From NCBI RefSeq assembly GCF_000341085.1, contig NZ_ANBA01000016.1, positions 62,001-126,000 on the forward strand: a stretch of DNA of 64,000 nt. The letters are read 5' to 3'. Positions 43,900 through 60,767 of the stretch are shown piece by piece. Origin of the DNA: Nocardiopsis ganjiahuensis DSM 45031 (GTDB taxonomy: Bacteria > Actinomycetota > Actinomycetes > Streptosporangiales > Streptosporangiaceae). A program made the translations under genes and the position numbers. The notes beneath the pieces were generated by a model. The model saw only the letters and a list, made by a program, of their open reading frames with translations. It was not told the DNA's origin and did no database searches. Numbering within the stretch: position 1 is the stretch's first letter; each line of letters starts with the position of its first letter.

Positions 43900-44348
43900 G
43901 AACCTAGGCGCCCGGACGGATGTCCGCAACCCTCTCGCCAGCGTGTCCCCATAACGGGGTCCGAGGACCGCGACCGGTCGGCGAAGGGGGGACCCGAGGA
44001 GGGGAAGTGGGGATGTGCGGTGCTGGGCACCGGCTCCAAGGATAAGGGCGCCGGAGCACGCGACTCCCCGGGCGCCACACCCCGCCGCTGGCCGAATCCT
44101 CCCTCCGGACATCCCTCTCCTGCGACTCCTCTCCGGGCAACCCGGCACCGACGACGCGTGGGGCGGCCGGGGCGAGACGAACCCCATACCCGCCGGGCCC
44201 CGGGAACCCCCGAAACCCTCCTTGAACCTCTTCCCGCATTCGGGGGACAACGACGGGTGAACACGTGTACACACATATGTGGAGGCCGCCGGAAAACAGG
44301 GCTCGAAAACACAAAACAAAATCCGCGCGCGACCCCGAGCACCCGTTC
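43900..44348. other. Intergenic region between nrdR and lexA
   Basis: I see no gene or known riboswitch in this 450-bp gap; the ORFs crossing it are Pro/Arg-rich noise. Overlapping palindromes ACACGTGT, GTGTACAC and CACATATGTG lie at 44261-44281. They are followed by an unusually A-rich stretch (44290-44325) that could be an upstream promoter element for lexA. Confidence 0.5.
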
Positions 44349-44389
44349 TCGAACGCTTGTTTGATATCACCGTGCGCAACGACTAATGT
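44349..44389 (+). promoter_or_regulatory. lexA: LexA (SOS) operator and lexA promoter
   Basis: TCGAACGCTTGTTTGA (44349-44364) fits the Gram-positive SOS box CGAAC-N4-GTTYG. It overlaps a good promoter: -35 TTGATA (44361-44366), 17-bp spacer, -10 TAATGT (44384-44389). LexA binding would cover the -35, giving autorepression. The transcript would start near 44396, leaving a leader of about 110 nt before the start codon. Confidence 0.85.
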
Positions 44390-44507
44390 TGACCTTGATT
44401 TCACGCCGGTTTCGCCGTCCCGTGGACCACCAGGTCGGCGCGGTCGGACCCGGTGGCTGGCCACACAAGCAGGCCCTGACCGAACCGAACGCCGAGGAGG
44501 CCCGGCC

Positions 44508-45239
44508 GTGCCGGAGGAGAACCCCGGAGCCGTCGGCTCCGGACCCACCACTGTTCTTTCGCCCGTAGGTGACACGGGGACAACCGTTCCCGACGCCCCC
44601 AAACTCACCGCGCGCCAGCAGAGTGTCCTCAACTGCATCCAGCGTTATGTCCGGGAACGGGGTTACCCGCCGTCCATCCGGGAGATCGGTGACACGGTCG
44701 GCCTGTCCAGTCCGTCCAGCGTGGCGCACCAGCTCAAGTCGCTCCAGCGCAAGGGCTACCTGTACCGCGACCAGAACCGGCCGCGGGCGGTCGAGCTGCG
44801 CACGCCGGGCCGGGACACGACGCAGAGCATCACCCCGGAAGAGCTCACCGCCGACTCCACCCGGGCCGCCTCGGTGCCGCTGGTCGGCCGGATCGCCGCC
44901 GGCGGTCCGATCCTGGCCGAGGAGGCGGTCGAGGACGTCCTGGCGCTGCCCCGGCAGCTGGTCGGCGAGGGCCGCCTGTTCATGCTCACCGTCGTGGGCG
45001 ACTCGATGGTCGACGCCGCGATCACGGACGGCGACCTCGTGGTGATCCGCCAGCAGCAGGACGCGGAGAACGGCGACATCGTCGCCGCGATGCTGGGCGA
45101 CGAGGCGACCGTCAAGGTGCTGCGTCGCGAACCGGACGGGCACGTCTGGCTGATGCCGCGCAACGACGCCTACGAGCCCATCAACGGTGACGAGGCGACC
45201 ATTCTCGGCAAGGTCGTCACGGTCATGCGCCGGGTCTGA
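44508..45239 (+). CDS. lexA: SOS-response repressor LexA
   Basis: This 243-residue repressor self-cleaves when RecA filaments form. The N-terminal winged helix-turn-helix is [20 protein letters not shown] with [20 protein letters not shown]. The Ala-Gly cleavage site is in [12 protein letters not shown], the catalytic Ser in [11 protein letters not shown], and the Lys in [11 protein letters not shown]. The GTG at 44508 is fixed by GAGGAGG seven bases upstream and leaves a 25-residue tail before the DNA-binding domain; the longer ORF runs back through the promoter. Autoregulation is shown by the SOS box at 44349. A long perfect palindrome terminates the gene. Confidence 0.95.
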
Positions 45240-50437: not shown

Positions 50438-50712
50438 CTCTGAGTAGTCCTTAGCCGGTTCTGGGTGTGTTGCCTTCAGGTTAGCGGCTGCGCCACCCGG
50501 CCGAGGACCGGTTTTCCACCACCTGGGACGCCCCCGAACCGGGCATCCATCACGGAGGGTGACGATCGCACCGGTGGTTTTCCGGACCCCTCGCCTCTCC
50601 ACACCGACCGCCCGGTTTGTTACTCTGCCGTAAAAGTGGCGCAGAACACGCGAGCCAGGTCACACCTGGTCCGTTGCACCTGCCTGGATTCACTCGCCTG
50701 CGGGAGGCCCCC

Positions 50713-52293
50713 ATGTTCAATCTTTCTGTGCTTCTTGAGGACGGCGCCCGAGCCGTGCCCGAGAAGGAGTGCCTGGTCTTCGGCGACACACGGCTCAACT
50801 ACGCGATCACCGACATGATCGCCAACCAGGTCGCGAACCTGTTGGTCTCCCGGGGCGTCGAGCCCGGCGACCGGATCGCCCTGGCCAGCCCCAACCTGCC
50901 GTACTTCCCGTTCGTGTACTTCGGCGCGCTCAAGGCGGGCGCCGTGGTCGTCCCGCTGAACGTGCTGCTGACGCCGCGCGAGATCGCCTACCACCTGGAG
51001 GACTCCGGGGCCAAGGCGATCTTCGCCTTCACCGGCTCCCCCGAACTCCCGCTGGGGCAGCGCGCCTTCGAGGCCTTCAACCAGGTGGACGCCTGCGAGC
51101 TCTTCGTGGACATGCCCGCGGCGGCCGGGGCCACGGAGTCCACGATCGAGGGCGCCGAGACCATCTGGGCGGCGCTGGCCGGCCAGCCGGGCACCTTCGA
51201 GACCGTGCAGGCCGGTGCCGACGACACCGCGGTCATCATCTACACCAGCGGCACCACCGGTAAGCCCAAGGGCGCCGAGCTGAGCCACAACAACCTGATG
51301 ATGAACGCCGTGGTGGCCTCCGGCCTGGTCAACCCGCACCCCGAGGGGCGCGACGTCGCCCTGACCGTCCTGCCGCTGTTCCACATCTTCGGCCAGACCG
51401 TGATGCTCAACGCCGCCCTGTACCGCCACGCCACCATGGTCCTCATGCCGCGCTTCGACGGCGACCAGGCGCTGGAGATCATGCAGAAGGAGGGCATCAC
51501 CGGTTTCGCGGGGGTGCCCACCATGTACTGGGGCCTGCTCAACGCCGCGCAGGCCGCCGAGTCCGGCAAGTACGACCTGGAGGCCATCGCGAGCAACCTC
51601 GTCGACTCCGTCTCCGGCGGCTCCGCGCTGCCCGGTCAGCTCGCCGAGGACTTCACCAAGCTGTTCGGTGTGGGCATCAAGGAGGGGTACGGCCTCTCCG
51701 AGACCTCTCCGGTGGCCTCCTTCAACAACCCCGACACCGGCGCCAAGACCGGCTCCATCGGCCGCCCGGTCTGGGGTGTGGAGATGAAGCTGATCGACCC
51801 CGAGTGGAACGAGGTCGTCAAGGAGGGCGACGAGGACCCCGTCGGCGAGATCGCGATCCGCGGCCACCTGATCATGAAGGGCTACCACAACCGCCCCGAG
51901 GTGAACGCGGAGGTCATGAAGGACGGCTGGTTCCGTACCGGTGACATCGCCCGCCGCGACGAGGACGGCTTCTACTTCATCATCGACCGCTCCAAGGACA
52001 TGATCATCCGCGGCGGCTTCAACGTGTACCCGCGTGAGGTCGAGGAGGTCCTGATGACCCACCCGGCGGTCAGCCTGGCCGCGGTGGTGGGCGTCCCGCA
52101 CGAGAGCCACGGCGAGGAGATCAAGGCGTTCGTGATCCTCAAGGACGGCGCCGAGGCCACGGCCGAGGAGATCACCGCCTTCTCCAAGGAGAAGCTGGCG
52201 GCGTACAAGTACCCGCGCCAGATCGAGTTCCGCAGCGAGCTGCCGATGACCTCCACCGGCAAGATCCTCAAGCGCGAGCTGCGCGACGCCTAG
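50713..52293 (+). CDS. Long-chain acyl-CoA synthetase / AMP-dependent ligase (FadD-like)
   Basis: This 526-residue adenylate-forming enzyme should activate a fatty or other carboxylic acid to its CoA thioester. The P-loop is IIYTSGTTGKPKGAELSHNN. Other ANL motifs are present: EGYGLSETSPVASFN, DGWFRTGDIARRDEDGFYF, the hinge region DRSKDMIIRGGFNVYPREVE, and the C-terminal catalytic Lys in PMTSTGKILKRELRD. The length is typical of FadD-like ligases. The ATG at 50713 has GGGAGG six bases upstream. It is divergent from leuS and convergent with the ABC transporter. If the PatA-like protein at the left edge acts as in Streptomyces, this is a possible target (inference). Confidence 0.9.
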   Translation: MFNLSVLLEDGARAVPEKECLVFGDTRLNYAITDMIANQVANLLVSRGVEPGDRIALASPNLPYFPFVYFGALKAGAVVVPLNVLLTPREIAYHLEDSGAKAIFAFTGSPELPLGQRAFEAFNQVDACELFVDMPAAAGATESTIEGAETIWAALAGQPGTFETVQAGADDTAVIIYTSGTTGKPKGAELSHNNLMMNAVVASGLVNPHPEGRDVALTVLPLFHIFGQTVMLNAALYRHATMVLMPRFDGDQALEIMQKEGITGFAGVPTMYWGLLNAAQAAESGKYDLEAIASNLVDSVSGGSALPGQLAEDFTKLFGVGIKEGYGLSETSPVASFNNPDTGAKTGSIGRPVWGVEMKLIDPEWNEVVKEGDEDPVGEIAIRGHLIMKGYHNRPEVNAEVMKDGWFRTGDIARRDEDGFYFIIDRSKDMIIRGGFNVYPREVEEVLMTHPAVSLAAVVGVPHESHGEEIKAFVILKDGAEATAEEITAFSKEKLAAYKYPRQIEFRSELPMTSTGKILKRELRDA

Positions 52294-52371: not shown

Positions 52372-53280
52372 TCAGCCCTTGACCGCGCCCTGGACGAGCC
52401 CGGACACCAGCCAGCGCTGGACGAGGACGAAGAACACCATCACCGGGATGGTGATGATCGTGGAGGCCGCCATGACGTGCCCCCAGTCGTTGGCGTACTG
52501 GCCGAAGAACTGGCGCAGGCCCACCGCGACCGTGTAGTTCTGGCTCTGGGTCATGAAGGTCATCGCGAGCACGAACTCGTTCCAGGCCACGATGAACGAG
52601 AAGATCGCCGTGGCCACCAGGCCCGGGGCCACCAGCGGGAAGAGCACCTTCCAGAACATCTGCGGCCAGGAGGCGCCGTCGATGTAGGCGGCCTCCTCAA
52701 CCTCCTTGGGGACCGCCGCCACGAAACCGCGCATCATCCAGACGGCCAGCGGCAGGGCCAGCGCCACGTAGACGATGCTCAGGCCGATCACGGTGTTGAG
52801 CATCTGGAGGTTGCGCACCTGGATGAACAACGGGATGACCAGCGCCTCCAGGGGCACCATCTGCACGATGAGGATCAGCACCAGTACCGCGGTGCGGAAC
52901 CGGAAGCGGAAGCGCGCCACCGCCACGGCCGCCAGCATCGACAGCACACAGGCGAAGGCCACCGTGACCCCGGCGACCGTCAGCGAGTTGCGCAGGTACG
53001 TGCCGAAGTTGCCCTCGGTCATGACGTACACGAAGTTGTCGAAGGTGAACGAGGTCGGCAGCAGTGCCCCGGTCCCGGAGGTCGTGCTGTCCGAGAACGC
53101 GCTCACCAGCATGAAGTAGACGGGGAAGAGGGTGAAGAACAGGAGGGCGCTCACCCCGGCGGCCTTGCCGAGGACGCGGCCGGCCCTGAGCGCCCCGCCC
53201 CGGCGCCGGGAGGCCCGTACCCGCACCTCCCAGTCGTCCCCGGCCGTGGCGGGGGATCTGTCAGCGGTGCGCGTGTCCAA
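52372..53280 (-). CDS. Sugar ABC transporter permease (MalG-type)
   Basis: This 302-residue inner-membrane permease of a carbohydrate (CUT1) importer has six helices. The EAA loop that contacts the ATPase is EEAAYIDGASWPQMFWKVLF. A basic, probably cytoplasmic tail precedes helix 1 (GVSALLFFTLFPVYFMLVSA). The start is TTG at 53280, chosen for the strong AGGAGG five bases upstream. The stop lies beside a terminator, so this is the last gene of the transporter set. No ATPase gene is present; in actinomycetes CUT1 importers often share the MsiK ATPase encoded elsewhere. Confidence 0.87.
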   Translation of the reverse strand: MDTRTADRSPATAGDDWEVRVRASRRRGGALRAGRVLGKAAGVSALLFFTLFPVYFMLVSAFSDSTTSGTGALLPTSFTFDNFVYVMTEGNFGTYLRNSLTVAGVTVAFACVLSMLAAVAVARFRFRFRTAVLVLILIVQMVPLEALVIPLFIQVRNLQMLNTVIGLSIVYVALALPLAVWMMRGFVAAVPKEVEEAAYIDGASWPQMFWKVLFPLVAPGLVATAIFSFIVAWNEFVLAMTFMTQSQNYTVAVGLRQFFGQYANDWGHVMAASTIITIPVMVFFVLVQRWLVSGLVQGAVKG

Positions 53281-53404
53281 CGGACCTCCTCGTGTGGGTG
53301 GGGCGCCTACGGCGGGTACCGCCCGCCGGACATGCCGTGGGGCGGGTCCGGGGGCATGCCCTACAATCCTCCTCGATCCGCTGGGTGAGGAACGGGAACG
53401 GGTG

Positions 53405-53775: not shown

Positions 53776-54735
53776 TCATCTCAGCTCGTCCTCCCGGAAC
53801 AGTGCGCGCAGGTACACGACGGTGACCCCGAGGAGCAGCAGCGTGAGCATGGCCGCGATGGCCGAGCCCGTGCCGAAGTCGTTCTGGCCGAAGGACCGCA
53901 CGTAGGCCCACACGCCCAGGTTGAGCATCTGGGAACCCCCGACGTCACCGCCGGGCATCAGGTAGATCTGCGCGAACACCTTGAAGTCCCAGATGGTCGA
54001 CAGCACCGTCACCACCGCGAACACCGGGCGCAGCGTCGGGAACGTGACGTGCCAGAAGCGCTTCCACGCCCCGGCGCCGTCGATCCGCGCCGCCTCGTGC
54101 AGCTCCTTGGGCACCGTGAGCAGCCCCGCCAGGACCGTGACGGCCACGAACGGGAACCCGCTGTGCACGATGTTGAGGGTGACGATCGCGTAGAACCAGA
54201 AGCGGTCGGCGAACCAGTTGTAGCCGGCGGGCTCGATGAGGCCCAGGGCCTTCAGGGCCTGCGCCACGACCCCGTGGTCGACGTCGAAGATCCAGATCCA
54301 CACGTAGGTGCCGCTGACCGCGGGCATCGCCCAGGCGACCATGATGCACGAGACCACGATGATCCGGGTGACCGGTTTGAGATTGGCCAGCAGCAGGGCG
54401 ACGAGCGTGCCCAGGACCACCGTCGCGACCACCGCGACCACGGCGAACACGACGGTGTTGACCAGGACGACCTGCCACAGGTACGGGTCGGTCAGCAGCC
54501 TGACGTAGTTGTCGAGGCCGATGAACTCCGACTCGCCCGAGACGAGGTTGCGGAGCTTGAAGTCCCGGAAGGACAGCCACACGATCCGGCCGATCGGGAA
54601 CAACAGCAGGAGTCCGATGACCCCGAGCGGGGCGACGAGCAGCACCCAGGGCAGGAGGGCGCGCCGCCCCCGCATACCCAGGAGCGGCGCGCGACGCCCG
54701 CCGTTCGGCGGCCGGACCGGTGTACCGAGCTGCAA
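53776..54735 (-). CDS. Sugar ABC transporter permease (MalF-type)
   Basis: This 319-residue permease has six or so helices (LPWVLLVAPLGVIGLLLLFP first). The EAA loop is LHEAARIDGAGAWKRFWHVT. Together with the MalG-type subunit it forms the channel of the importer. The TTG at 54735 follows the binding-protein stop TAG with no gap, and GAGGGC precedes it, so translation is probably coupled; an in-frame ATG at 54675 is an alternative. Confidence 0.88.
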   Translation of the reverse strand: MQLGTPVRPPNGGRRAPLLGMRGRRALLPWVLLVAPLGVIGLLLLFPIGRIVWLSFRDFKLRNLVSGESEFIGLDNYVRLLTDPYLWQVVLVNTVVFAVVAVVATVVLGTLVALLLANLKPVTRIIVVSCIMVAWAMPAVSGTYVWIWIFDVDHGVVAQALKALGLIEPAGYNWFADRFWFYAIVTLNIVHSGFPFVAVTVLAGLLTVPKELHEAARIDGAGAWKRFWHVTFPTLRPVFAVVTVLSTIWDFKVFAQIYLMPGGDVGGSQMLNLGVWAYVRSFGQNDFGTGSAIAAMLTLLLLGVTVVYLRALFREDELR

Positions 54736-56031
54736 CTAACTGCCCTCGTTGAGGATGTTCTCGATGGCCTCGGCGGCGCTGTCGGTGGCCTCCTCGACGG
54801 TCGCGTTGCCGTTGAGGATGTCCTGGTGCATGCCGACGATGATGCCCTCGGCCTCGACCTGCGACCACGCGGGGACGACCGGGGTGGTGCGTCCCGCCTC
54901 GAGGAGCTGGACCGCGAACGGCTCGACCAGCGGGTCGCCGGAGTCGGCGTAGGCCTGGATCTCGTCGACCCCGGCCGGGAAGAAGCCGCTCTCCTCGCCC
55001 CAGCGCTCGAAGAACTCGCCGTTGGTGAGGAGGTCGACGTACTGCCAGCCCGCCTCCTCGTTTCCGGTGCCCTCGAACACCGACAGCAGGGAGCCGCCGG
55101 CGAAGGAGTCCATGTACCCGCCGTCCTGGCCGGGCAGCGTGAAGACGCCGAGCTTGCCCTCCAGGTCGGGGTTGGACTCGATGATGGCCTTGGGGTTGGA
55201 GCTGTTGGAGATCGCCATGATCGACTGCTCGTCGGCGAGCGTCTCCATGACGTCGATCTCGTTCCAGTTGACCGCGCCCGTGGTGGACAGGTCGTCCTCC
55301 AGGGCCAGGTCGGTGAAGAACTCCACCCCGGCGCGCCCCTCGGGGCTGTTGATGGTGGAGGTCCAGGTGCCGTCGGCCTCCTGGACCGCGACCTCACCGC
55401 CGCCGCCCCAGATCCACGGCATGACCGAGTACTGGGCCTGGCCGGGCACCGGGAAGCCGATCATGTCCTCTTCGGCCTCGGCGAGGTCGAGCGCGGTCTC
55501 ACGCAGCTCGTCCCAGCTGGTGGGCTCCTCCTGGCCGTGCTCCTCGAAGATGTCCTTGCGGTAGATGATCGACCGGATGGACGCGTACCAGGGCACACCG
55601 TAGGCGGCGTCGTCGATGACGCCCATCTCGTACATCTCCTGGTGGAAGCGGGAGGGGTCGTCGATGTAGCCGGAGAGGTCGTGCAGGGCGCCGGCGTCGG
55701 CGAACTCCGGGGTGAAGGTGGTGCCGAGTTCGATGACGTCGGGCGTGGTGCCGCCGGCGATGGCCGTGGAGATCTTGTCCTGGGCGTCGGCCCAGGGCAC
55801 GAACTCGACCTCGGCCTCGATCCCGGTCTCCTCGGTGTACGCCGCGTTGACCTCGTCGAAGAAGGCCGTGGCGTCCGGGTTGGTGCCCTCCATGATCCAG
55901 ACCTGGAGGGTGTCGGTGGTCCCGCCGTCACCGCCGCCGTCTCCGCCGCCACCGCAGGCGGTCGCCGCAAGCACCAGGCTCAGTGTGGCTGCGGGGAGGG
56001 TGACGTACTCGTGTACTCGTCTGCGGGCCAT
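54736..56031 (-). CDS. Sugar ABC transporter substrate-binding lipoprotein
   Basis: This 431-residue CUT1 binding protein is exported and lipid-anchored at the Cys of SLVLAATACGGG (near 27), followed by a Gly/Asp spacer. The periplasmic-binding fold is seen in TLQVWIMEGTNPDATAFFDE and FVPWADAQDKISTAIAGGTT. PGQAQYSVMPWIWGGGGEVA is the usual ligand-cleft region. The sugar cannot be told: the family takes up maltose-, trehalose- or chitooligosaccharide-like compounds. The ATG at 56031 has GGGAGG upstream. It is the first gene of the transporter set, under a promoter with tandem direct repeats. Confidence 0.88.
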   Translation of the reverse strand: MARRRVHEYVTLPAATLSLVLAATACGGGGDGGGDGGTTDTLQVWIMEGTNPDATAFFDEVNAAYTEETGIEAEVEFVPWADAQDKISTAIAGGTTPDVIELGTTFTPEFADAGALHDLSGYIDDPSRFHQEMYEMGVIDDAAYGVPWYASIRSIIYRKDIFEEHGQEEPTSWDELRETALDLAEAEEDMIGFPVPGQAQYSVMPWIWGGGGEVAVQEADGTWTSTINSPEGRAGVEFFTDLALEDDLSTTGAVNWNEIDVMETLADEQSIMAISNSSNPKAIIESNPDLEGKLGVFTLPGQDGGYMDSFAGGSLLSVFEGTGNEEAGWQYVDLLTNGEFFERWGEESGFFPAGVDEIQAYADSGDPLVEPFAVQLLEAGRTTPVVPAWSQVEAEGIIVGMHQDILNGNATVEEATDSAAEAIENILNEGS

Positions 56032-56072
56032 CGGCTCGCCTCCCGTTCCTTTCGAGGGTCCCCTGAGGGTTG

Positions 56073-56126
56073 GTAGGAAACCTACGTAAAGAACGGCGAC
56101 TTGTGAAGTAAACAACTACGACTTGT
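56073..56126 (-). promoter_or_regulatory. ABC transporter promoter with 22-bp-spaced direct repeats and palindrome
   Basis: On the minus strand -35 TTCACA (56107-56102), a 17-bp spacer and -10 TAGGTT (56084-56079) form a good sigma-A promoter. Two 19-bp direct repeats, 16 of 19 identical, lie at 56086-56104 and 56108-56126 with 22-bp phasing. One lies between the -35 and -10 boxes, overlapping the -35, and one lies just upstream. A palindrome GTAGGAAACCTAC (56073-56085) covers the -10. This looks like a regulator-binding array; the protein is not encoded nearby. Confidence 0.7.
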
Positions 56127-56209
56127 GTCTGAGCTGTTAGGGGACGTTGTCCCGCGAGCCGGGGACGGGTCTCCCGCCAGGGGGCCGGGGGCGGCCCGCC
56201 CAGCGGTTC

Positions 56210-56746
56210 TCAGTCGCTCAGGCCGGTCACCTGGCGCAGGGTGGAGACCAGTTCGGAGCGCTTGTAGACGGCCTGCCCGATGGCGGCGCAGAAGGCGGCG
56301 AGCATGTGCACGAAGACCATGGGGTCGCCCTGGGTGAAGCGCTCCGCGGCCTCCTCCTCACCGATGGAGTGGGCCTCCCAGGCGGTGGAGACCGCGAACT
56401 CCAGCTCCGGCGGGAGCATCTCGGCGACCGTGCGGGCCACCGCCTCGCGCGAGTCGGCGGGTTTCCACACGACACCGGTGTCCTGGACCCGTCGGCCGAG
56501 GAAGGCCGCGATCACCTTGAGTTCGGACAGGACGTCGTCGACGTCGTCGGTGGCCCGGGGGATGAGCCGGTCCAGTTCCTCCCTGTTGTGGTCCACGTAT
56601 GCGCTGACCAGCGCGATCGCGGTCTCCTTGACGTGGTCCGGCAGGTCGTGTTCGGGTGTGGGTCCGCCCTGGGGCGCGTTGTCGTCGGAGGACACGGGGT
56701 TGGTCCCTTCACTGCTGCTCACTGCTGCTGGAACTGTCGGCTCCAT
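56210..56746 (-). CDS. Conserved protein in the third position of the tms operon (TmsC candidate)
   Basis: This 178-residue acidic, mainly helical protein has no recognised motif (VKETAIALVSAYVDHNREEL, LSELKVIAAFLGRRV). It follows tmsB by 93 bp on the same strand. The described tmsABC loci for 10-methyl fatty-acid synthesis end with a small gene of uncertain role, so this is a candidate by position only. The ATG at 56746 has GGAG eight bases upstream; a GTG at 56704, after AAGGG, is an alternative start. Confidence 0.6.
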   Translation of the reverse strand: MEPTVPAAVSSSEGTNPVSSDDNAPQGGPTPEHDLPDHVKETAIALVSAYVDHNREELDRLIPRATDDVDDVLSELKVIAAFLGRRVQDTGVVWKPADSREAVARTVAEMLPPELEFAVSTAWEAHSIGEEEAAERFTQGDPMVFVHMLAAFCAAIGQAVYKRSELVSTLRQVTGLSD

Positions 56747-56839
56747 GATGCCGTCTCCGTGTCGCCGGATGCGGCAGGAGGACGGTTCCGGGCGGGGGTG
56801 TCCGCGATGCGCGAACACCCCCGTCCGGGTTCGGGAGGG

Positions 56840-58126
56840 TCAGAAGACCGGGCGCAGGGGCATGTGGGAATCGGTCCCGTCCAGCTTGACCCCCAGGATC
56901 TGGTGGAGCTGCACGACGTCCCGCTCGAAGCCCAGGACGGACCCGGCCATGTAGAGCAGCCACACGCGTGCGGTGCCCTCACCGACCTCGGCGACGGCCT
57001 CCTCCCAGTTGCGCTCCAGGTTGGCGCCCCAGTGGCGCAGGGTCAGGGCGTAGTGCTCGCGCAGGTTCTCCTGGTGGCGGATCTCGAATCCGGCGTCGTT
57101 CATGGCGGTCTGGATCTGGGCGGGGCCCTCCAGCTCGCCGTCGGGGAACACGTACCGGTTGATGAAGCCCTTGGTGTTCATCGGCTTGAGGTTGTTGCGC
57201 GGCCGGGTGATGCAGTGGTTGAGCAGCCGGCCGCCCGGCACCAGCTTGTCGTGGAGCGAGGAGAAGTAGGCGTCCAGGTTCTTCGAGCCGATGTGCTCGG
57301 TCAGGCCGATGGAGCTGATCCGGTCGAAGCTGCCGTCGGGCACGTCCCGGTAGTCCATGTGCCGGATCTCGGCCAGGTCGGTCAGGCCCTCCTGGGCGAT
57401 CCTCTTCGCGCCCCACTCCGCCTGCTCCTTGGAGAGGGTCACCCCGACCGCCTTGACGCCGTACTCGCGGGCGGCGTGGCGGACCATGCCGCCCCACCCG
57501 CAGCCGACGTCGAGCAGGCGCATGCCCTCCTCGAGGCCCAGCTTGCGGGCGACCAGGTCGTACTTGCGGAACTGGGCGCTCTCCAAGGCCCCGTCGAAGG
57601 CGCCCACCCGGTCCAGGGAGCCGTCCTGGTCGTCGAAGACCGCGCAGGTGTAGGTCATCGACGGCCCGAGGACCATCTCGTAGAACTCGTTGGACACGTC
57701 GTAGTGGTGGTGGATGACCTCGGCGTCGCGCTCCTTGGAGTGCCGCAGCCCCCGCCCGAGCAGGGTGCCCCGGCGCACCTCCTGGGGCGGCGGGGCCACC
57801 CGGTTGACGAACTTCACCCAGCCCACCGAGCGGACGATCTCGAACGCGTCGCGGGCGGTCACGTTCACCCCCTCGGCGAAGGCGAAGTCCGCCATGTGTC
57901 TGAGCAGGGTGTACATGTCGCCCTCGATCTCCAGGTGGCCGGAGACGTAGGCGCGGGTGAGGCCGACGGCGTTGGGTGACTGGGCCAGGTAGTTGACGGC
58001 GACCGGGGTCCGCACGTTCAGCCCGACGTCGCTGTTCGGGTCTCCGGCGGAGCTGCCGTCGTAGGCGGTGAACCGGATGGGCGCGTCAGGTCCGACGACA
58101 CGCTCGAAGATCTCTGCAAGCCGCAT
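56840..58126 (-). CDS. tmsB: SAM-dependent fatty-acid 10-methylene transferase (cyclopropane-synthase family)
   Basis: This 428-residue enzyme is of the CFA synthase family, which adds a one-carbon unit from SAM to the double bond of a phospholipid acyl chain. The SAM-binding motif is MRLLDVGCGWGGMVRHAARE. The neighbouring family blocks IHHHYDVSNEFYEMVLG and SMTYTCAVFDD are intact, as are SSIGLTEHIGSKN and NHCITRP. It follows an FAD oxidoreductase gene on the same strand, the tmsA/tmsB (bfaA/bfaB) pair that makes 10-methyl chains such as tuberculostearic acid. The ATG at 58126 has GGAAAGGA upstream. The product is inferred from the pairing. Confidence 0.87.
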   Translation of the reverse strand: MRLAEIFERVVGPDAPIRFTAYDGSSAGDPNSDVGLNVRTPVAVNYLAQSPNAVGLTRAYVSGHLEIEGDMYTLLRHMADFAFAEGVNVTARDAFEIVRSVGWVKFVNRVAPPPQEVRRGTLLGRGLRHSKERDAEVIHHHYDVSNEFYEMVLGPSMTYTCAVFDDQDGSLDRVGAFDGALESAQFRKYDLVARKLGLEEGMRLLDVGCGWGGMVRHAAREYGVKAVGVTLSKEQAEWGAKRIAQEGLTDLAEIRHMDYRDVPDGSFDRISSIGLTEHIGSKNLDAYFSSLHDKLVPGGRLLNHCITRPRNNLKPMNTKGFINRYVFPDGELEGPAQIQTAMNDAGFEIRHQENLREHYALTLRHWGANLERNWEEAVAEVGEGTARVWLLYMAGSVLGFERDVVQLHQILGVKLDGTDSHMPLRPVF

Positions 58127-58254
58127 GCTCTTGTCCTTTCCCCTGTCGGACGCGGCCCTTCCCCACGGGTCGCCTCCCGGTGGTGTCGACTGCTCAGCTT
58201 CGGTGGTCCTGCGTTCGGCTGTCCGGTGGTCAGGCGGTGCCGCGGATGAGTGGT

Positions 58255-59745
58255 TCAGCGGTTGCGTACGCACTTGGCGTACAGGTCCAGGAGACGGCCC
58301 TCGGGGTCGTAGGCCCGTTTGAGGGCGTCGTAGGCGGTGCCGTTGTAGAGGTCCCAGAACTCGTCCTCGGTGTAGAAGGAGTCCGAGTACAGCGACTTGT
58401 GGCCGCCGAGCCGGGTGACCTCCTCCTCGACACTGCGGTTGTGGTGGGCCCGGCGCTGGCCGGGCTGCATGTCGACCAGCCCCCAGAACCCGAAGTTCAC
58501 GTACAGGCGGTCGTTCTCCAGCGGGTACAGCGGCCAGACGTGTTCGCCCTCGGCCAGCCCCTTGCGGCGGGGTTCGCGGAGCCGGATCGGGCACATCCAC
58601 AGCGGGGTCATGCCGATCCGGTCGTGGTAGAAGTCCAGGAACTCGGCCCCGTGCTCGACCCCCACCTCGATGTCCTGGATGAGGGGTTCCTGCTGGGGTC
58701 GGCCGCGGTAGTGGTTCAGGAGCCGGGAGAAGTCGGTGCGCCGGTCCCAGGCGACCAGCCTGCGGTAGACGTCGGAGCGTTTGAGGGCGCGCGGCCACAG
58801 CGGGCGCACGAGCGGGTTCTGGGTGCCGAAGGCGCGGGAGCACCAGAACCAGTCGGTGTCCCAGCGCCAGAGGTAGTCGTGGACGGTGAGGTAGTCACCG
58901 GGCCCGGCGGGGGCGGATCCGCCCGCGGGGTCCGCGTAGCGCGGGATCGAGCGGTAGTAGACGTCGTTGCCGGTGTAGTCGCTGGTCCAGGGTGCCTGGT
59001 CGGTGAAGCGGGCCAGGGACAGGTACAGCTCGTCGGGGCCGAAGGCCACTCCGTCCACGAAGTCCACGGGCTGCCCGTCGTGGACGGCGTCGGCGCAGAT
59101 CCGGGCGAGGGCGTCCATCGCCTCCGCGGCGTCGTGGAACCTGAGGTGGCGCAGGTGCACGTAGGGGGAGACCGGTTCGAGCTCGATGCGCAGACGCAGG
59201 CTGTAGCCGAGCGTCCCGTAGGAGTTGGGGAAGCCGTGGAACAGGTCGCTGTGCTCGTTGTCCCGGGTGGCGGTGACGACCTCGCCGGAGCCGGTGAGGA
59301 TCTCCATCTCCTGCACCGACTCGTGCGGCAGGCCGTTGCGGAAGGAGGAGGACTCGATCCCCAGTCCGGTGACCGCCCCGCCCAGGGTGATGGTGCGCAG
59401 CTGCGGCACGACCATGGGCATGAGCCCGTGCGGGAGGGTGGCGGCGACCAGTTCCTCGTAGGTGGTCATGCCGCCGACGTCGGCCAGGCGCTCGACGGGG
59501 TCGATGGAGATGACCCCGGAGAAGGCCGACACGTCCAGGGCGGGCGCCGAGGAGGGTTCACGGAACCGGAAGAGGTTGGAGGTCGGCTTGGCCAACCGCA
59601 CCGGCGCGCCTTCGGGGAGCGCCCGGTACTCCCGGCTCAGGCGCTGCACCGCGGCGATGTGCTCCGCGAGTCCCGTTCCCCGTCCTGCCGGCTGTTTCGA
59701 CCTGGAGCCTGAGTTCGACGTCGTACCGGGTTGTCTAGGAGTCAT
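58255..59745 (-). CDS. tmsA: FAD-dependent 10-methylene fatty-acyl reductase
   Basis: This 496-residue flavoprotein has a PCMH-type FAD domain (VISIDPVERLADVGGMTTYE, VPQLRTITLGGAVTGLGIES) and a C-terminal domain of the DWF1/DHCR24-like group. In the tmsAB (bfaAB) pathway it reduces the 10-methylene intermediate made by the methyltransferase to a 10-methyl branch, using NADPH. It lies 128 bp upstream of tmsB on the same strand. The ATG at 59745 has GGGGAA six bases upstream. A Ser/Arg/Pro tail precedes the conserved part. Assignment rests on family plus pairing. Confidence 0.82.
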   Translation of the reverse strand: MTPRQPGTTSNSGSRSKQPAGRGTGLAEHIAAVQRLSREYRALPEGAPVRLAKPTSNLFRFREPSSAPALDVSAFSGVISIDPVERLADVGGMTTYEELVAATLPHGLMPMVVPQLRTITLGGAVTGLGIESSSFRNGLPHESVQEMEILTGSGEVVTATRDNEHSDLFHGFPNSYGTLGYSLRLRIELEPVSPYVHLRHLRFHDAAEAMDALARICADAVHDGQPVDFVDGVAFGPDELYLSLARFTDQAPWTSDYTGNDVYYRSIPRYADPAGGSAPAGPGDYLTVHDYLWRWDTDWFWCSRAFGTQNPLVRPLWPRALKRSDVYRRLVAWDRRTDFSRLLNHYRGRPQQEPLIQDIEVGVEHGAEFLDFYHDRIGMTPLWMCPIRLREPRRKGLAEGEHVWPLYPLENDRLYVNFGFWGLVDMQPGQRRAHHNRSVEEEVTRLGGHKSLYSDSFYTEDEFWDLYNGTAYDALKRAYDPEGRLLDLYAKCVRNR

Positions 59746-59991
59746 GCCGGGTTCCCCTGAACTGTTGACGACTGGCTGTTGGCGGCGCACAGCTTGGGTC
59801 GGCCGGAACCGGTGGTGGTGTACCGCGGCAGGCCGATTCCCTCAGTTCTACCTATCGGTAACGGTCTTCTGCCACCCCATTTCGGTACGTGTCTTACCCA
59901 CACGGGGCCCGGTTCCGGGGCCCGGACCGGCGCTCGTCACAGGCGACGCCCCGTCACCTGCGGTGTTGTCGGGGTCACCCGCCGACCCGCA

Positions 59992-59997
59992 TAGGAT
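59992..59997 (+). promoter_or_regulatory. -10 element of a probable leaderless promoter (racemase-like gene)
   Basis: TAGGAT lies eight bases before the GTG start, with no ribosome-binding site. Confidence 0.4.
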
Positions 59998-60005
59998 TCG
60001 GTTCC

Positions 60006-60767
60006 GTGCGCATCGCTCTTGTTGACTCCGGTATCGGCATGCTGTCCACCGCCGCCGCGCTGCACGCGGCCCGGCCCGACGCGGACCTCGTCCTCTCCAT
60101 GGACCCGGACCACATGCCGTGGGGTTCCCATACCCCGGAACGGATCATCGACCGGGCCCTGGCCGGGGCCCTCGCCGCGCGGGACTCCGCGGGTTCCCTG
60201 GACGCGGTGGTCGTGCCCTGCAACACCGCGTCGGTCCACAGCCTGGACCGGTTGCGCGCCGAGTTCGAGCCCGGTGTCCCGGTGATCGGCACCGTTCCCG
60301 CCATCAAACCCGCGGCCGCCGCGGGGACCCCCATCGCGGTGTGGTCCACCGAGGCCACCACCCGCAGCTCCTACCAGCGCCGGCTCGTGGAGACCTTCGC
60401 CCGGGACGTGTCCGTGACCACGGTCGCCTGCAAGGGCCTGGCCGAGGCGGTGGAGTCCGCCGACCCCGACCGGATCGCCGGGGCCGTGGCGTACGCGGCG
60501 TCCCTCACCCCGCCCGAGGTCCGCGGGGTGGTGCTGGGCTGCACGCACTACGACCTGGTGGGCGAGGAGATCTCCAAGGCGCTGTCCGGGAGCGTGGAAC
60601 TGTTCACCGCGGCCCGGCCGGTGGCCACCCAGACCCTGCGCAGGATGGGTGCGGCCGCCGGGGCCGGCGGTGGGGCGGGCGAGGTCACCGTCCTCGCCAG
60701 CGGCCGCCCGGAGGAACTCCCCCCGGCGGCCCTGACCTACCCCGCGGGCAGAGCGCTGCTCAGCTGA
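60006..60767 (+). CDS. Aspartate/glutamate racemase-superfamily protein (MurI-like)
   Basis: This 253-residue protein has the hallmarks of the cofactor-independent racemase family: RIALVDSGIGMLSTAAA at the N-terminus, the first catalytic Cys in VVVPCNTASVHSL and the second in GVVLGCTHYDLV. The usual FPYG of glutamate racemase is replaced by DHMPWGSHTPE, and the N-terminal Gly-Gly is Gly-Met, so it is a divergent MurI or a racemase for another amino acid. The GTG at 60006 follows TAGGAT by eight bases without a ribosome-binding site. It is divergent from the tms operon. Confidence 0.78.
   Translation: MRIALVDSGIGMLSTAAALHAARPDADLVLSMDPDHMPWGSHTPERIIDRALAGALAARDSAGSLDAVVVPCNTASVHSLDRLRAEFEPGVPVIGTVPAIKPAAAAGTPIAVWSTEATTRSSYQRRLVETFARDVSVTTVACKGLAEAVESADPDRIAGAVAYAASLTPPEVRGVVLGCTHYDLVGEEISKALSGSVELFTAARPVATQTLRRMGAAAGAGGGAGEVTVLASGRPEELPPAALTYPAGRALLS

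Follow-up and report, generated by a model that had tools for sequence, protein, structure and literature searches.

A conserved promoter with a putative palindromic operator before a sugar-type ABC importer operon in Nocardiopsis and related genera

The closest described systems come from Streptomyces. The csnREFGHK cluster, at the head of which stands its own regulator gene, is described with the ROK-family repressor CsnR and the CsnR box AGGAAANTTTCCT (PMC6097792). The same review gives A(G/C)TGGTCTAGACCA(G/C)T as the consensus of dre, the site of DasR (PMC6097792). It also recounts that direct repeats in Streptomyces chitinase promoters were proposed as a binding site (Delic 1992; Ni and Westpheling 1997, both via PMC6097792), single-base changes in which deregulate the promoters (via PMC6097792).

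The locus considered here lies in a window of 64 kb, i.e., the whole stretch of DNA analysed. A sequence-only reading of it had drawn attention to two phased direct repeats at an importer promoter and had proposed that a response regulator or another tandem-binding protein acts on them. On comparison with orthologs, this striking single-genome repeat dissolved and the less striking palindrome adjacent to it emerged as the constrained part. The site was not found in print in the literature on the motif, on Nocardiopsis promoters, on Nocardiopsis ROK operators or on ROK proteins and GlcNAc.

The importer operon and its promoter

The operon is encoded on the minus strand and consists of three genes. 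The first (54736..56031) encodes the substrate-binding protein of a carbohydrate ABC importer (431 amino acids with a lipoprotein-like N terminus; Pfam SBP_bac_1, 1.8e-40), and it is followed by a first permease (53776..54735; BPD_transp_1, 7.7e-18) and a second permease (52372..53301; BPD_transp_1, 1e-20), the start codon of which is not fixed. The claim that the repeats lie at the promoter of a sugar-type ABC importer was borne out. No NCBIfam model reached its cut-off for the binding protein or for either permease. By sequence, the closest solved structure to the binding protein was Lin1841 (4e-42), a match that does not fix the cargo.

The predicted promoter, read on the minus strand, is composed of the -35 element TTCACA (56102..56107), of which TTCAC is found in the 61 module-bearing promoters described below, and, 17 bp away, the -10 element TAGGTT (56079..56084; TANKTT in relatives). 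Transcription would start near 56070-56073, in agreement with the earlier prediction of 56072. A standard promoter scan detected nothing, since it demands closer likeness to TTGACA/TATAAT. The housekeeping -35 consensus has G at the position that holds C here, and the presence of C in 61 orthologs hints at more than plain sigma-70 contact. The predicted 5' leader (56032..56071, minus strand) carries the ribosome site GGGAG (56044-56040) and a small CCC-loop-GGG hairpin. An RNA element was considered and rejected: an Rfam search of the leader gave no family (two matches lay far below the gathering score, E 0.16 and 0.85), and the hairpin was weak, with 7 pairs and a covariation term of -0.25 kcal/mol in 8 chosen leaders of the 61.

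The existence of the repeat pair was confirmed. On the plus strand, the proximal copy GTAAAGAACGGCGACTTGT (56086-56104) and the distal copy GTAAACAACTACGACTTGT (56108-56126) are two 19-mers in direct orientation, identical at 16 of 19 positions and 22 bp apart from start to start. Three bases of the -35 element fall within the proximal copy, together with 16 of the spacer's 17 bases; the distal copy borders directly on the -35. With up to three mismatches, the 19-mer matched the 64-kb window at these two copies only (0.01 matches expected). A search of the whole genome (7.35 Mb, up to three mismatches) gave five matches, i.e., the two copies and three sites with three mismatches each, against four for the reversed-pattern control, and the 19-mer is not a genome-wide element. 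It was also found that 16 places in the window, the repeat pair included, hold a 19-mer repeated with at least 16 of 19 identities at an offset of 19-60 bp, compared with a Markov expectation of 1.4 on average (40 order-1 copies); hence, the pair is not remarkable window-wide. For the 178-bp intergenic stretch alone, a comparable pair appeared in 0.3% of 3000 Markov copies.

Distribution and conservation of the promoter module

Orthologs of the binding protein at E<=1e-90 were found in 62 of 341 genomes of the host's family, the source genome included, spread over 13 genera. The upstream regions of all 62 (38 from Nocardiopsis and 24 from other genera) were inspected, and a common module, CTTCACA-N15-GCGTARGTTTCYTACC on the minus strand (-35 TTCACA, 17 bp, -10 TARGTT), was present in 61 of them and in 12 of the 13 genera; G198 has the importer without the module. 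The ortholog comparison thus covered 61 promoters from 12 genera, the source genome among them. In a set of 120 genomes, a binding-protein match at E<=1e-60 was obtained in 50 (source included), and the 36-bp pattern CTTCACA-N15-CGTARGTTTCYTAC with up to three mismatches was found in 45, comprising 38 of Nocardiopsis and 7 of other genera, whereas its reversed control matched once. These 45 are exactly those of the 120 genomes that have an ortholog at E<=1e-90, and the pattern occurs once per genome apart from an extra three-mismatch match in G017. Two Nocardiopsis genomes, G012 and G024, have neither the ortholog nor a match to the module. Among 394 genomes sampled class-wide, a longer pattern was matched in 17, every one a member of the host's family. 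The module is confined to the promoter of this operon, apart from scattered matches at chance level.

The promoter region is strongly conserved. The alignment was anchored on ACTTCAC or CTTCAC (only G198, which has no module, failed the anchor and was left out), and the invariance of the -35 columns is therefore partly by construction. Most columns between about 56140 and the ribosome site are conserved above 0.9 in the 38 Nocardiopsis promoters (columns below 56053 were judged from the listing rather than counted), with variable gaps at 56122-56118 and 56102-56095; the flanking columns 56142-56154 are conserved at only 0.37-0.63. For the other genera, columns were counted in 22 promoters (L130 and G198 left out), and the fixed ones were CTTCAC (56108-56103, the anchor), TGCGTA (56088-56083) and TT (56080-56079), together with the T (56075) and C (56073) of the TAC end of the palindrome, the A between them reaching 0.95. 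The distance from CTTCAC to CGTA is 16 in 60 of the 61 promoters and 17 in the remaining one (L130). On the upstream side, GTTTAC (56108..56113, minus strand) adjoins the -35 and is retained by Nocardiopsis and by some of the other genera: TTTACT immediately precedes TCACA in 37 of the 38 Nocardiopsis promoters and in 11 of the 23 others. Further upstream lies a Nocardiopsis-specific box, CTAACRGSTSAGACACAA (56123..56140, minus strand), in which 14 of 18 columns reach at least 0.9 in the 38 species and which was not seen in the promoters of other genera. With up to two mismatches, this box gave 40 matches in 37 of 40 genomes (three of them extra), compared with 13 for the reversed control, and G022 has the module without the box.

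The palindrome GTAGG-TTT-CCTAC (GTAGG-AAA-CCTAC on the plus strand; 56073..56085) covers 13 bp and is the proposed repressor operator. It had been described as lying over the -10, which holds true. Most relatives carry the form GTARG-N3-CYTAC. Over the 61 promoters, all five arm pairs are complementary in 42, four in 18 and three in one; all five pair in 37 of the 38 Nocardiopsis palindromes, while the 23 palindromes of other genera have five pairs in 5 cases, four in 17 and three in 1. Arm positions 4 and 10 vary mostly as purine and pyrimidine, respectively, being G/C in 43 promoters, G/T in 9, A/T in 5, A/C in 3 and T/C in 1. This is not strict covariation; the occurrence of all four purine/pyrimidine combinations would fit a dimer that accepts either purine. 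The palindrome core, with up to one mismatch, was found in 38 of 40 Nocardiopsis genomes (control, 5), with two extra matches in the source genome and one in G027, and at this tolerance no second conserved operator site was found in the 40 genomes.

The two extra sites of the source genome are identical copies of ACGTCGGTTTCCTACC, one mismatch from the operator core (L161:9649-9664 on C8 and L160:8888-8903 on C17). From reading of the translations, they lie upstream of a secreted amidase-like gene and a binding-protein-like gene. No counterpart was found in the other 39 Nocardiopsis genomes with up to one mismatch. The two sites could be further targets, which would speak against the importer operon being the only one.

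Readings of the site

On the sequence-only reading, the two 19-mers, separated by two helical turns, would be bound by a response regulator or another protein of tandem-binding type. In its favor, an offset of 22 gives the highest mean identity between copies in the genus (12.05 of 19 in the 38 Nocardiopsis promoters; 1.9-7.5 at the other offsets from 12 to 32), and AC, GT and TTAC stay common to both copies in most Nocardiopsis. However, the identity of 16/19 in the source genome is the highest of all 61 orthologous promoters, falling to 2-10 of 19 in the 23 promoters of other genera, so that the repeats are largely not conserved. The AAGTCG portion drifts in both copies, and the proximal copy begins with ACT instead of ACA in 14 of the 38 Nocardiopsis promoters. 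Matched changes between the copies did at first appear in excess (122 against 103.5 in shuffles, with 8 of 5000 shuffles as high), but on shuffling within clades of the binding protein at four cut-offs no excess was seen (139 observed; means 139.9-141.8), and relatedness therefore explains it. The two copies are thus not kept in register across orthologs and show no concerted change within clades, and the direct repeat was rejected as a functional unit. In addition, the position of the proximal copy between the -35 and -10 elements would be unusual for an activator site, similar sites elsewhere in the genome do not exceed the control, and no response regulator was present among 40 proteins scanned with Pfam (the importer genes and four genes of L132 included). 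A tandem-binding protein is consequently very unlikely, and the repeat is probably a by-product of elements spaced 22 bp apart and of drift.

Four other readings were considered. In one of them, the palindrome is an unusually constrained core promoter and discriminator rather than an operator: several -10 bases (T, A and TT) belong to the fixed columns, and only one family and one operon possess the module. This is nevertheless unlikely, given that the terminal GTA and TAC, which extend in part beyond the -10 hexamer, vary almost as little (1.00, 0.95 and 1.00 for TAC in other genera), that the purine/pyrimidine variation is near-symmetric and that conservation extends upstream too. A dedicated alternative (ECF-like) sigma factor that reads CTTCACA and CGTA directly, leaving the palindrome incidental, would account for the presence of both boxes in 61 of 61 promoters at a spacing of 16 or, once, 17, and the pair CTTCAC/CGTA presumably resembles the ECF41-type TGTCACA/CGTC. 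This reading is quite unlikely, as conservation continues past the -10 in the form of a palindrome and as other sites with the exact two boxes at one spacing barely differ in number from the control (see below). Catabolite control by a CRP-type global regulator on a site overlapping the -35 is hardly probable. The consensus of such proteins is TGTGA-N6-TCACA, the right half TCACA is perfect in 24 of 38 Nocardiopsis promoters and 22 of 23 others, and the best match at any place in the 150-base stretch has one or two mismatches in 17 of 38 and 15 of 23, respectively; but the left half at the -35 place matches at just 2-3 of 5 bases in all 38 Nocardiopsis promoters, and TTTACT fills the N6 spacer in 37 of them, although a protein of this type would not be expected to recognize these bases. 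Finally, a ROK-family repressor of the CsnR kind might act through a shrunken CsnR box, since the sense strand contains AGG-TTT-CCT and a second binding-protein/permease/GH3 operon of the source genome has a divergent ROK gene and a perfect AGGAAAGTTTCCT. However, AGGAAANTTTCCT is matched at best with 3-4 mismatches in Nocardiopsis and with 3-5 elsewhere, and the arm spacing differs, which makes this reading very unlikely.

The reading that we prefer, with about an even chance of being correct, is that of a promoter-operator of the three-gene importer operon with a trans-encoded repressor on the palindrome and a second factor upstream. RNA polymerase would use TTCACA (56107-56102) and TAGGTT (56084-56079), with a start near 56071. 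The proposed repressor, a homodimer encoded elsewhere in the genome and probably responsive to sugar, would occupy GTARG-N3-CYTAC over the -10 and start and block the promoter until its ligand arrives, with the importer operon as its only strong target. GTTTAC and the Nocardiopsis box at 56123-56140 may be bound by a second factor, an activator that makes up for the departure of the -35 from consensus, and a second factor or a special polymerase contact may be engaged at GTTTACTTCACA. What the genomes display directly is the conservation of the site, its near-symmetry, its near-fixed spacing, and its restriction to and co-occurrence with the importer operon; we infer the repressor, its ligand, the activator, the start site and, on the strength of the NagZ-like GH3 gene behind the importer in other genera, a GlcNAc-type cargo. 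A two-fold symmetric site does lie over the predicted -10 and start. A point against the operator is that only 5 of the 23 palindromes of other genera are perfect and that one has T at arm position 4, and part of the conservation belongs to the promoter and not to the operator because the -10 sits inside the palindrome. G198, in which the importer lacks the module, and the longer spacing in L130 also count against this reading.

Sugar repressors commonly regulate their own genes as well, and the failure to find a second conserved site at up to one mismatch in the 40 genomes is thus a further point against. No sugar regulator was found among the scanned neighbors, which were a racemase, an FAD enzyme, a CMAS methyltransferase, the short upstream gene, a P450, a GH3, fadD, a DUF6406 protein, leuS, an AI-2E transporter, an ion channel and some proteins without a family. 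The sole DNA-binding protein seen near the importer was LexA (44265-45239), located behind leuS and 7 kb beyond the operon. The exact two-box pattern CTTCAC-N16-CGTA gave 100 matches in 23 Nocardiopsis genomes, 22 of which were the importer promoter; the remaining 78 compare with 74 for the reversed control, and hence there is no wider regulon at this spacing.

A wider two-box regulon at this one spacing was rejected, and eight recurrent matches to the loose pattern differ beyond the two boxes. Judged from translations, four of these lie upstream of a glycerol-3-phosphate-dehydrogenase-like gene, two between TetR-like and hydrolase-like genes and two upstream of a RadA-like gene. The first kind was met in 8 of the 23 Nocardiopsis genomes; the four that were fetched carry CGTTCGGCATTGTCGTA (L150:1164, L151:1158, L152:1201 and L153:1187), perhaps a GylR-type site. 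A palindrome-like AC(A/G)..ATACGAACGATCGTAT was noticed between the TetR-like and hydrolase-like genes in two Nocardiopsis (L154 and L155).

On the whole, the earlier observation stands, its interpretation is borne out only in part, and the locus is probably an ordinary conserved promoter-operator of a sugar importer with an unusually private and well-kept site. Sugar operons seldom show a site that is limited to one operon per genome and has no regulator gene next to it. A bolder view is that the module is private in the full sense, i.e., that one non-adjacent regulator (a repressor or a dedicated sigma factor or activator) has one strong target in each genome and is kept in 12 genera, that GTARG-N3-CYTAC represents an undescribed operator class and that the import of a GlcNAc-type, possibly cell-wall-derived, sugar is tied to a conserved lipid-gene neighborhood; this we regard as doubtful. 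For Nocardiopsis and its relatives, the promoter provides a convenient bait (about 40-70 bp) with which to find what regulates this uncharacterised importer.

Cargo, gene neighborhood and comparison with known systems

A GH3 gene lies behind the importer in 22 of the 24 loci of other genera (L049 and L127 gave none); these are the query from L047 and 21 others at 62-80% identity. Two of them were scanned with Pfam (PF00933, 5e-66 and 2e-62), and five that were read contain KHFPGHGDT..DSH, which we take to be the NagZ-type signature. A NagZ-like GH3 behind the importer in other genera makes a GlcNAc-type sugar the probable cargo and points to an oligosaccharide containing beta-GlcNAc, which may derive from chitin or peptidoglycan. 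The 33 Nocardiopsis loci, some of them short or from a genome represented twice, showed no GH3 or P450 close to the importer, and the cargo may therefore differ in Nocardiopsis; L105, titled N. chromatogenes, has both. Directly before the importer, 19 of the 24 other-genus loci carry a P450 gene; the sequence of L118 extends just 1.1 kb upstream.

In the window, the importer is followed by a convergent fadD-like gene (50617-52293, AMP-binding). Upstream on the importer's strand are a short gene (56210-56746, no family), a CMAS-type methyltransferase and an FAD-binding enzyme, and this stretch (56210-60767) presumably resembles a cluster for methyl-branched fatty acids (tms/bfa-like). An Asp/Glu-racemase-family gene (PF01177) adjoins it. 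The closest GH3 of the source genome (48%) belongs to the second binding-protein/permease/GH3 operon (L132:3848-10160, on G000:C9), where the divergent ROK-family gene is accompanied by the perfect CsnR-type box AGGAAAGTTTCCT at L132:5091. The two importers are therefore wired differently.

Compared with the published systems (PMC6097792), the locus resembles Streptomyces chitinase promoters in having short direct repeats in the promoter. It differs in that the importer repeat has not been kept by evolution, whereas single-base changes matter in the chitinase repeats. With DasR and dasABC of Streptomyces it would share the control of GlcNAc or chitobiose uptake and use, but the best match to the DasR dre ASTGGTCTAGACCAST at the importer promoter has 4-8 mismatches, which leaves no dre there. 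From the CsnR system it is set apart by the form GTARG-N3-CYTAC, with 3-5 mismatches to the CsnR box, and by the lack of an adjacent regulator among the scanned neighbors; among the stretches searched, a perfect CsnR box was found only at the paralogous operon of L132. As in the CsnR system described there, a palindromic operator, here a putative one, is placed at the promoter of an ABC importer for amino-sugar oligosaccharides, here the probable cargo, in an actinomycete, and, like the CsnR box, it is an odd-length palindrome with AGG and CCT ends.
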